Assembly (NCBI GenBank): GCA_002842095.1
Contig: PHCB01000002.1
Span: forward strand, 124,001 to 188,000
From: a candidate division BRC1 bacterium HGW-BRC1-1
GTDB lineage: Bacteria; Sumerlaeota; Sumerlaeia; Sumerlaeales; Sumerlaeaceae
Reading direction: 5' to 3'
Length of the DNA: 64,000 bases
In this document: positions 33,015 to 35,888 of the stretch, piece after piece
Numbering within the stretch: position 1 is the first letter of the stretch
Layout of the letters: every line of letters begins with the position of its first letter
The notes under the pieces: generated by a model
Seen by the model: only the letters and a program-made list of their open reading frames with translations
The model's database searches: none
What the model was told of the DNA's origin: nothing
Position numbers and translations under genes: made by a program

Positions 33015-33411
33015 CCCACGGGGCCGCAGGTGCGACGGCTCGATTCTCGATCCTGCGGGACAGGCCCATTAAACTTTACAAAGAGATCACCTCAAAGAAG
33101 ATCCGTTATCTTTGGATTCCCCGATGTGTGACATGGAACGGCAGATCGGGATGCGCCAGCTCACGGTAAACCAGACCTTTTCAAGGGCCCGTCCTGTCAA
33201 TTGCGGCGCTTCACCCTCGAATTCCGATTGAAAAAACTGTCAGCTGGAAGCATCTGGTTGGCAGAAGAGAAAATTCAGCGGTCCGATTTTGATTCTCAGA
33301 GGTCTAACCTGTGTGAGGTAACCTTCACGATGGCGCTTTCATCCAAGTCGCGAACGATGCACTTCGGGTGGCAAGCCATCATGACTAAATCTACCTGAGT
33401 AGGAGCGGACA
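33015..33411 (+). other. 397-bp leader region of the B12-sensor operon
   Basis: No credible gene. CCGCAGG (33024-33030) pairs with CCTGCGG (33052-33058) as a hairpin just after the deacetylase stop and may be a weak terminator. I looked for the B12-box and the conserved core of a cobalamin riboswitch before 33412 and did not find one. A ribosome-binding site TAGGAG lies 8 bp before the ATG at 33412. Confidence 0.5.
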
Positions 33412-34479
33412 ATGCAAACGGACTACCAGATTGCTGGAGAGACCATCATTGCGCGCAAGCGCGAGTTGGCGGAGGCCGCATGCGCCTGGCAGTATGAGCG
33501 CCAGCCCGGCGTGTGGGAACCCTACGGTGAGATCGGACGCCAGAGGGCCATTGAAGATGCAGAGTATCACCTCACCTTCCTGGCCGAAGCGTTAAGTGCG
33601 CAGCACCTTCCATTATTTACACAATATGTTGCCTGGGCAAAAGGGCTCTTCACCGGGCTGGGCCTGCCCGATGATGCACTTCAGATGGGTCTGGAATGCC
33701 AAATGGACGTTCTGCGGACGAAGCTCCCTTCGGAACTGAGCGGCCCGGCTAACGAATACAACGCCGCGGCCATTGCGCATCTCTCCGAATACCCAAACAC
33801 CCCGCTTCCTTTCGTTGACGAAACTCACTCGCTGGGCCCGTTGACAAAACGCTATCTTGATGCACTTCTGCGAGGTGAGCGCCACGAGGCCAACAAGCTG
33901 ATCATAGAGGCTGCCAGAAGCGGCGTCGCAATTCGCGAGATCTACGAGCAGGTATTTGAGCGATCCCAGAAGGAAGTTGGAAGGCTGTGGCAAACCAACC
34001 AACTGACGGTGGCACAGGAGCATTACTGTACGGCTTCGACTCAGTTGATCATGTCACAGTTCTACCCTCAACTCTTTGCCACTCCGCGCAATGGACGGCG
34101 TCTGGTGGCTGCGTGTGTCAGTGGTGAACTTCACGAGATTGGCGCCCGCATGGTGACTGATTTCTTCGAGCTGGACGGTTGGGATACTTACTACCTTGGC
34201 GCCAACTCGCCCACACATACCATCGTGCAGGCAGTCGTTGACCGAAAGGCCGACGTGCTCGCCGTGTCATCGACGATGACGTTCCACCTGCGCCAGGTTC
34301 GTGAGATCATCGCGGCTGTTCGTGCTTCGCCCAGCGCACGCTCCGTGAAGATTCTCGTTGGCGGATACCCGTTCAGTGTTGTCACGGGTCTTTGGACGGA
34401 GATTGGCGCAGACGGGTCCGGAATCAGTGCCTCAGGTGCCGTAGACGTCGGGAATCAGTTGGCTGGCAGCAAACATTGA
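33412..34479 (+). CDS. Cobalamin-binding sensor protein with CarH-type photoreceptor motifs
   Basis: A 355-residue soluble protein. Residues 1-140 are a helical domain I do not recognise. Residues 141-215 form the four-helix B12-binding-2 domain and contain W193-x9-E203-H204 (LWQTNQLTVAQEH), the signature of adenosylcobalamin photoreceptors of the CarH/LitR type. Residues 230-350 are the Rossmann-like B12 domain with E239-x-H241-x-x-G244 (GELHEIGARM), whose histidine is the lower axial ligand, and LVGGYPF. The MerR DNA-binding domain of CarH is absent, and the residue after W193 is Gln, where Thermus CarH has a His that captures cobalt after light. Its stop overlaps the GGDEF start (TGATG), so the two are co-translated. 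Confidence 0.85.
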   Translation: MQTDYQIAGETIIARKRELAEAACAWQYERQPGVWEPYGEIGRQRAIEDAEYHLTFLAEALSAQHLPLFTQYVAWAKGLFTGLGLPDDALQMGLECQMDVLRTKLPSELSGPANEYNAAAIAHLSEYPNTPLPFVDETHSLGPLTKRYLDALLRGERHEANKLIIEAARSGVAIREIYEQVFERSQKEVGRLWQTNQLTVAQEHYCTASTQLIMSQFYPQLFATPRNGRRLVAACVSGELHEIGARMVTDFFELDGWDTYYLGANSPTHTIVQAVVDRKADVLAVSSTMTFHLRQVREIIAAVRASPSARSVKILVGGYPFSVVTGLWTEIGADGSGISASGAVDVGNQLAGSKH

Positions 34480-35888
34480 TGACGGAGTCGCAATGGCAGG
34501 CGGACGGTTTTGCGATTCTCTGCAACACGCAAGGGGTCGTTCTGGACGTGCCCTATCAGACGCTGCCAATAGACCGTCAGTTAGTTCCCGGTGTTTCATT
34601 TGCCTTTTTGTTCCACGAGAACAGTATCGAGAAGGCGGTTCGTTTCCTCGCAAGCGCCCGCGAGCAGGACGTCTCCGAACACTGCTCGCTTAACATTTCG
34701 CTCGCTGGCAACGTTCTGCCTGTTTTCGTCAGCTCGCACCGAACACCAGAAGGGCTGAGAATAATGGGTGCGTTGTCAGAGCCGTCGCTGATAAGACTCT
34801 GTTCTACTTTACCGGAGAGCGCGCCGGGCCTTCTGCCTTTAAGCGCCGCCCCTTTGCTCGAGAATCAGGACCCACCCGCCGCGATTACCCCGCCTTTGGA
34901 TGCCGACTTGTTCGAGGAATTCTCTCGCCTCAACAACGAGTTCGCCAATGCACAACGCGAACTGGCCAAGGCTAATGCGGAAATCAACGCTCAGCGCGAG
35001 TGGCTGCAAGGCACATTGCGGAGCATCACGGACGCAGTCGTCGCCACAGACCAGACGGGCCGTATCAAGTTCATAAACCCGACGGCACAGAAACTTACCC
35101 AATGGACAGAAGACCAAGCAATTGGACTCCCATTGCATGATGTCTTTATGATCCTGACCGACGACACACGCGAAGCCGTCGAAGATCCGATTGAGGCCAT
35201 GAGAGTGTCCACCGGACAAACAGGCATCGGAGAGAATACCTACATCCTGGTCGCCCATGATGCGAGTGAGCTTCAGATCGAATGCACAACGGCTGTCATC
35301 GCCGGCCTGTCTGGTAGGCGTGAAGATCTGATTGGAATGGTTGTCGTGTTCCGCGACATCAGTGAGCGCAAACGCACGGAACAAGCCTTGAAAGCGTCGG
35401 CCCTGGTGGACGAACTCACAGGTCTCTACAATCGCCGAGGATTCATGGCACTGGCCGAGCAGCAGATGAGAGTTGCTCAACGGTTTGCCAATGAAGTCAC
35501 CGTCTTCTTTGCCGACCTCGACGGGCTGAAACGGATCAACGACACCCTCGGTCATCAAAGCGGAGACGAGGCGATCAGTGCTGCGGCGACGGTCATTCGT
35601 CGGTGCTTCCGCAAGTCTGACATCATTGCCCGTCTTGGCGGCGACGAGTTCGCAGTTCTTGCGGTGGAAAGCCGAAGAGAGAATAGCAGTCCGATAGGTT
35701 TGCGGTTACAGAGTCTTGTTGACGAGTGGAACGCTGAACCCGGAAGAGCGTTTGTCCTGTCAATTAGCCTCGGAACATCGCACAGTGACGCAAACCACCC
35801 GCTCACTCTTGATGAGATGCTGGAACAGGCGGATCAGCTCATGTATATCAACAAGAAGAAGAAGTATCGGGAAGTGTTGCCCCCCTGA
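34479..35888 (+). CDS. PAS-PAS-GGDEF diguanylate cyclase
   Basis: A 469-residue protein. Residues 1-100 form a PAS-like input domain, followed by a linker, a short coiled coil (about 145-175), a second PAS domain (TDAVVATDQTGRIKFINPTA), and a GGDEF domain from about 320. The active-site motif GGDEF is intact (387-391), and the inhibitory I-site RKSD (378-381) lies exactly five residues before it, so the enzyme should make c-di-GMP and be product-inhibited. There is no membrane segment. The start overlaps the stop of the B12-binding protein by one base; that partner is the likely signal input. Confidence 0.93.
   Translation: MTESQWQADGFAILCNTQGVVLDVPYQTLPIDRQLVPGVSFAFLFHENSIEKAVRFLASAREQDVSEHCSLNISLAGNVLPVFVSSHRTPEGLRIMGALSEPSLIRLCSTLPESAPGLLPLSAAPLLENQDPPAAITPPLDADLFEEFSRLNNEFANAQRELAKANAEINAQREWLQGTLRSITDAVVATDQTGRIKFINPTAQKLTQWTEDQAIGLPLHDVFMILTDDTREAVEDPIEAMRVSTGQTGIGENTYILVAHDASELQIECTTAVIAGLSGRREDLIGMVVVFRDISERKRTEQALKASALVDELTGLYNRRGFMALAEQQMRVAQRFANEVTVFFADLDGLKRINDTLGHQSGDEAISAAATVIRRCFRKSDIIARLGGDEFAVLAVESRRENSSPIGLRLQSLVDEWNAEPGRAFVLSISLGTSHSDANHPLTLDEMLEQADQLMYINKKKKYREVLPP

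Follow-up and report, generated by a model that had tools for sequence, protein, structure and literature searches.

A photocobilin-type sensor of reversed domain order, encoded in a translationally coupled pair with a predicted diguanylate cyclase

Two overlapping genes and the domains of the cyclase

Coordinates are positions within the window, that is, the whole 64,000-nt stretch of DNA analysed, and all features described lie on its + strand. A gene specifying a protein of 355 amino acids, the sensor (33412–34479), follows a Shine-Dalgarno-like TAGGAG (33400–33405) and is succeeded by a gene for a protein of 469 amino acids (34479–35888), its partner. The two genes share one base in a TGATG stop/start overlap (34477–34481), an arrangement of translational coupling. 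The first-pass annotation of this DNA had placed both reading frames, the overlap and the sensor motifs discussed below correctly; of its phrase "fused by translational coupling" only the coupling stands, the genes being overlapping and unfused.

Pfam identified in the partner a PAS domain (residues 178–294, 6e-11; 35010–35360) and a GGDEF domain (residues 308–462, 5e-36; 35400–35864). The GGDEF motif (35637–35651), the metal-binding Asp and an RxxD I-site [RKSD, 35610–35621, five residues before GGDEF] are all intact, and on these motifs the protein is a diguanylate cyclase of predicted activity. An N-terminal PAS domain, also called in the annotation, went undetected in the Pfam scan of the partner; residues 1–110 (34479–34808) are nevertheless modelled, with moderate confidence (pLDDT 74.6, best Foldseek match 4e-5), as a PAS fold, which gives the order PAS, coiled coil, PAS, GGDEF. 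The coiled coil is a long helix (residues 142–179; 34902–35015) bearing a conserved LNNExxNxxREL motif.

It had been suggested that the sensor makes contact through the first PAS of the cyclase. This domain is indeed conserved with the pairing described below, but it is missing from the partners of loci L005 and L042 and from the fused protein of L002, all of which keep the helix. On this evidence the helix is likely to be the part that is essential, the coiled coil being more constant among partners than the first PAS. By itself the coiled-coil motif is unspecific, a similar helix occurring in an unrelated kinase (L080). No sequence match was found between the partner front and PpsR; the fold alone resembles PpsR, among many PAS proteins.

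Identity of the sensor

The C-terminal part of the sensor (residues 138–355; 33823–34476) comprises a four-helix bundle and a Rossmann fold, as judged from Pfam, the predicted structure and fold matches. Pfam reported B12-binding_2 (residues 146–215, 5e-14) and B12-binding (residues 230–338, 3e-23) and, as the annotation had it, neither a helix-turn-helix nor a MerR-type DNA-binding domain. All four published light-response motifs (PMC11796333) are present: GxxW [G190–W193, followed by Gln194; 33979–33993], EH [E203–H204], GxxH [G238–H241] and GxxxP [G263–P267; 34198–34212]. The first two form W193-x9-E203-H204, and the third is part of E239-x-H241-x-x-G244, which includes the axial His241 (G238–G244; 34123–34143). 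E203–H204 lie on helix 200–222 of the bundle (34009–34077). The Trp, the EH pair and the axial His are retained in all aligned fused globin-B12 homologues, while in the alignment methyltransferase-type corrinoid proteins have F or Y with V/L/M/I in place of W/EH; these motifs are thus not due to chance.

In a PDB search with the whole sensor the photocobilins ranked first [8j2w, 3.6e-24]. The predicted structure (pLDDT 90.6, pTM 0.85) likewise matched photocobilins 8j2w and 8j2y best, with Z 26.9 and rmsd 1.7–2.0 Å (1.7 Å over 208 residues), against a Z of about 21 for CarH and 20.7 for AerR; these full-sensor rows span residues 138–355 only, and the identity of the head comes from sequence profiles.

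The N-terminal head (residues 1–137; 33412–33822), "unknown" in the annotation, has in fact recognizable relatives. A profile built from the family's heads only matched allophycocyanins (2e-7) and the globin domains of the photocobilins AbPcob (9e-5) and SasPcob (4e-4), and in the whole-sensor PDB search residues 12–101 matched the SasPcob globin as a second, weak stretch, with allophycocyanin also matched weakly. In a Clostridium homologue the head forms its own ORF and scores above the Pfam Phycobilisome cut-off (24.9 vs 22.2 bits). To judge by these profiles the head is a phycobiliprotein-like globin, or photoglobin. The head profile also matched, with E values down to 1e-11, the C-terminal domain of B12-globin proteins from genomes of another phylum, so that by sequence the head-type domain sits at the opposite end of photocobilin-like proteins. 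Since the head is of photoglobin type and the fold is nearest to photocobilins, we assign the sensor to the photocobilin class with reversed domain order. On the same two grounds a CarH that has merely lost its helix-turn-helix was ruled out; of the original "CarH-like" label, what survives is an AdoCbl-photoreceptor-type B12 domain without a DNA-binding domain, not a derivation from CarH/LitR. Nor does Gln194 argue against photochemistry, and the earlier suggestion that it may alter the photochemistry is weakened, since the residue next to the Trp is Gln in SasPcob and Tyr in AbDPcob, both of which respond to light (PMC11796333, PMC10979010).

Two residues of the head are of interest with respect to a bilin. 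Asp49 (33556–33558) aligns both with SasPcob Asp270, which contacts rings A–C of biliverdin (PMC10979010), and with the Asp in the CxRD motif of phycobiliproteins; Trp75 (33634–33636), unchanged in 21 of 21 heads, aligns with the biliverdin-contacting Trp296 of SasPcob. SasPcob numbering was anchored via the chain positions of His108 and Trp61. In AbPcob, a poor biliverdin binder, His replaces the Asp (PMC10979010). The attachment Cys is absent from the head, with A46 at that position, and SasPcob is also without it. From these alignments biliverdin binding by the sensor is possible.

The window's genome has the means for making biliverdin and for adenosylating cobalamin, in that it carries a heme oxygenase (1.4e-24) and a BtuR/CobO cobalamin adenosyltransferase (1.4e-46); neither a PHY domain nor a PduO-type adenosyltransferase was found in it. 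Heme oxygenase is missing from 13 of the 14 other sensor-carrying genomes, and within the phylum it does not track the sensor, being present in one of four carriers and 10 of 36 non-carriers. Biliverdin supply was dropped as a predictor of the sensor for this reason, and biliverdin use is accordingly uncertain. In L034:1474–3590 (G000:C8) the heme oxygenase gene lies downstream, on the same strand, of a radical SAM gene whose product we take, on sequence alone, to be HemW/HemN-like. Also encoded in this genome is a MerR protein whose B12 domain is CarH-like (L063:883–1842, G000:C18), with G-x-x-W, EH and the axial His present; it may be a second B12 photoreceptor.

Pairing of sensor and transmitter in other genomes

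Of 27 loci in which the sensor is present, with its globin and B12 parts either fused or split, 22 have a co-directional transmitter adjoining it; several of the 27 come from closely related members of a single phylum, and they do not amount to as many independent events. Among the 16 loci measured the two genes overlap by as much as 11 bases or are separated by up to a few tens of bases, and in one case by 154. The output is GGDEF in nine loci (the window, L007, L015, L016, L045, L047, L051, L053 and L061) and a histidine kinase in ten (L002, L003, L005, L008, L013, L018, L019, L042, L076 and L077); in L002 sensor and kinase are a single polypeptide. Three loci (L004, L017 and L043) have no catalytic output. 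Five related sensors are without such a partner (L006, L009, L010, L011 and L012, the last on a locus that stops at the sensor gene), and none was seen within the flanks read for nine sensors with a C-terminal globin.

The search in the opposite direction tests the pairing more strongly than does this count of neighbours. With a threshold of E<=1e-6, the partner's PAS and coiled-coil front, used as a profile, gave 13 matches in nine of 22 genomes, and all 13 lie beside a globin-B12 gene; among them are the pairs L076 and L077, which were absent from the building of either model. In 301 genomes of another phylum the same profile recovered a single true pair, together with the L080 kinase, which matched in its coiled coil only. 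The pairing of sensor and transmitter is therefore real, and it recurs across bacteria and archaea. The co-occurrence that the annotation had asked for is thus borne out, and with the gene neighbourhood conserved, its proposal that the sensor acts by protein contact on the linked cyclase is probably correct.

When sensors with and without a partner were compared residue by residue, Q211 ranked first and Y218 third, both on helix 200–222; sequences related by descent entered this comparison as if independent, and common ancestry confounds it. We regard the association as a lead only, and the same face may serve a homodimer.

Several loci depart from the common plan. The partners in L017 (846–1490) and L043 (1116–1487) have at their C-terminus a short domain rich in Cys (CxxC...CPxC) in place of a catalytic output, and that in L004 (6044–6475) consists of the PAS/coiled-coil front alone. 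In L007 (4890–5993), L008 (852–1987) and L019/L064 the globin and B12 parts are separate adjoining genes in varying order; from this gene structure each half of the sensor can presumably function as a polypeptide of its own. Two Planctomycetes loci have no transmitter and carry upstream of the sensor an ECF-type sigma factor gene [L010:3763–4341 and L012:4246–4812; Pfam Sigma70_r2/r4], which in L012 shares an overlapping stop/start with the sensor gene, an arrangement suggesting that a sigma factor is what these sensors control. Globin-B12 sensors also occur in methanogens of the Methanomicrobiales (L003, L009 and L076), two of the three having a histidine kinase partner and no heme oxygenase. 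It is doubtful that light or biliverdin plays a part in the methanogens, and light is doubtful in the Clostridium relative. The closest public relative, L002, bears the label of a Klebsiella pneumoniae metagenome bin, which the content of the contig renders doubtful.

Proposed function and relation to known systems

We think it probable that the two proteins are a cognate sensor-transmitter pair in which light causes the adenosyl group to be lost, contact with the coiled coil of the partner is altered in consequence, and c-di-GMP output changes with it. The N-terminal photoglobin, which may hold biliverdin, would sit beside the C-terminal AdoCbl domain, and in the dark AdoCbl would lie under Trp193 and Glu203–His204. 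The Co-C bond would be broken by green light, or by red in a sensor that holds biliverdin; the adenosyl group would depart and the helix carrying E203–H204 would shift. Helix 200–222 is the equivalent of the SasPcob helix bearing Glu71–His72, the one which shifts on illumination (PMC10979010). The displaced helix bundle might then alter its contact with the PAS/coiled-coil front of the partner, and so change GGDEF pairing and c-di-GMP synthesis.

As to where such contact would be made, the crystal structure of AppA with PpsR has the SCHIC domain, of B12 fold, lying on the long helix between the N-terminal PAS and PAS1, and the contact modelled for AerR involves helix four of the bundle (PMC9144470). 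Light would be more likely to activate the cyclase than to inhibit it, by analogy with AbDPcob, whose turnover is raised >10-fold by light (PMC10979010). A separate photocobilin also alters the activity of AbDGC in trans, with isolated parts in vitro, and SasPcob without biliverdin affected AbDGC in the opposite sense (PMC10979010).

The main rival to light sensing keeps the same pair and has the sensor report, by being loaded or empty, the supply of AdoCbl, or else the redox or oxygen state, its photolability being incidental. It is kept alive by anaerobic and archaeal relatives, near ones being found in Clostridium and the Methanomicrobiales, and is favoured too by the general lack of heme oxygenase in carriers and by the observation that AdoCbl binding alone lowers AbDPcob cyclase activity relative to the apo form (PMC10979010). 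We consider it unlikely all the same: the adenosyl-holding Trp193 and Glu203–His204 are kept in every aligned fused homologue and lost from the methyltransferase-type corrinoid proteins, and a bilin-type globin would be an odd addition to a supply sensor. A misread corrinoid methyl-transfer protein beside an incidental overlap is highly improbable. MtgC/MtbC corrinoid proteins are the best NCBIfam matches, yet far below cut-off; the photoglobin head and the conserved transmitter neighbours speak against this reading, and the motifs together with the tree, which put the sensor outside the MtaC/MtbC type, rule it out.

Compatible with the preferred light-driven pair, as a version of it, is a green-only B12 photoreceptor whose head carries no bilin and has a structural or dimerisation role, as proposed for AbDPcob. 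The missing attachment Cys, the scarcity of heme oxygenase among relatives and the low biliverdin occupancy of AbDPcob, about 20% (PMC10979010), would fit this; on the other side, Asp49, lost in AbPcob, is retained here together with Trp75, and heme oxygenase is encoded in the window's genome, from which PHY domains are absent. We lean somewhat against this version. Only a little short of an even chance, in our estimation, is a broader proposal: a widespread, mobile, two-component-like module in which a reversed or split photocobilin works exchangeable outputs (cyclase or kinase) through a PAS/coiled-coil front on which it docks much as AppA does on PpsR, a module found also in anaerobes and in archaea without heme oxygenase, where the globin may hold another tetrapyrrole or none.

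Photocobilins, their reversed domain order and their control of cyclases are already known. What is new, as far as the literature examined goes, may be the natural cognate two-gene pair and the dedicated partner front with exchangeable outputs; a 2022 survey of photoglobins may list such operons. The natural partners of standalone photocobilins are described as unclear, the trans effect on a cyclase having been obtained in vitro alone, between parts that were isolated or mismatched (PMC10979010). In this locus and its relatives sensors are found with their natural partners, whose outputs are interchangeable and in which a candidate docking element recurs. The signalling step thereby becomes open to experiment, and a ready-made split optogenetic device for control of c-di-GMP or of a kinase would be at hand.

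The closest known systems are the photocobilins, SasPcob as a standalone protein and AbDPcob fused to its cyclase (PMC10979010), which have in common with the sensor a CarH-type AdoCbl domain, a photoglobin, the light motifs, the Asp and Trp of the biliverdin site, in SasPcob the Gln beside the Trp, and the control of a diguanylate cyclase, demonstrated in trans with isolated parts in vitro. They have been grouped by whether the B12 domain is N- or C-terminal (PMC10979010). In the window, by contrast, the globin lies N-terminal to the B12 domain, sensor and cyclase are encoded by two distinct genes coupled in translation, and the partner has a PAS/coiled-coil front of its own which recurs with other outputs. 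In AppA-PpsR and AerR-CrtJ (PMC9144470) a B12-fold protein without a DNA-binding domain likewise acts by contact, as proposed for our pair, upon a partner of similar build (N-terminal PAS, long helix, PAS, output); there the output is a helix-turn-helix instead of GGDEF or a histidine kinase, the photoglobin is peculiar to the window sensor, and the partners resemble one another in architecture, with no sequence match of the window's partner front to PpsR. CarH/LitR proteins share the AdoCbl photoreceptor domain, W-x9-EH and the axial His, whereas the sensor has no MerR domain, carries a photoglobin and has Gln194 in place of the second cobalt-ligating His. Lastly, the BBAG-2 globins encoded beside B12-binding proteins (PMC10151467) also associate a bilin-type globin with a B12-binding protein, but as a separate globin with an RGMC motif, whereas that of the present family is linked to a transmitter and fused to the B12 domain, or split from it in L007, L008 and L019.
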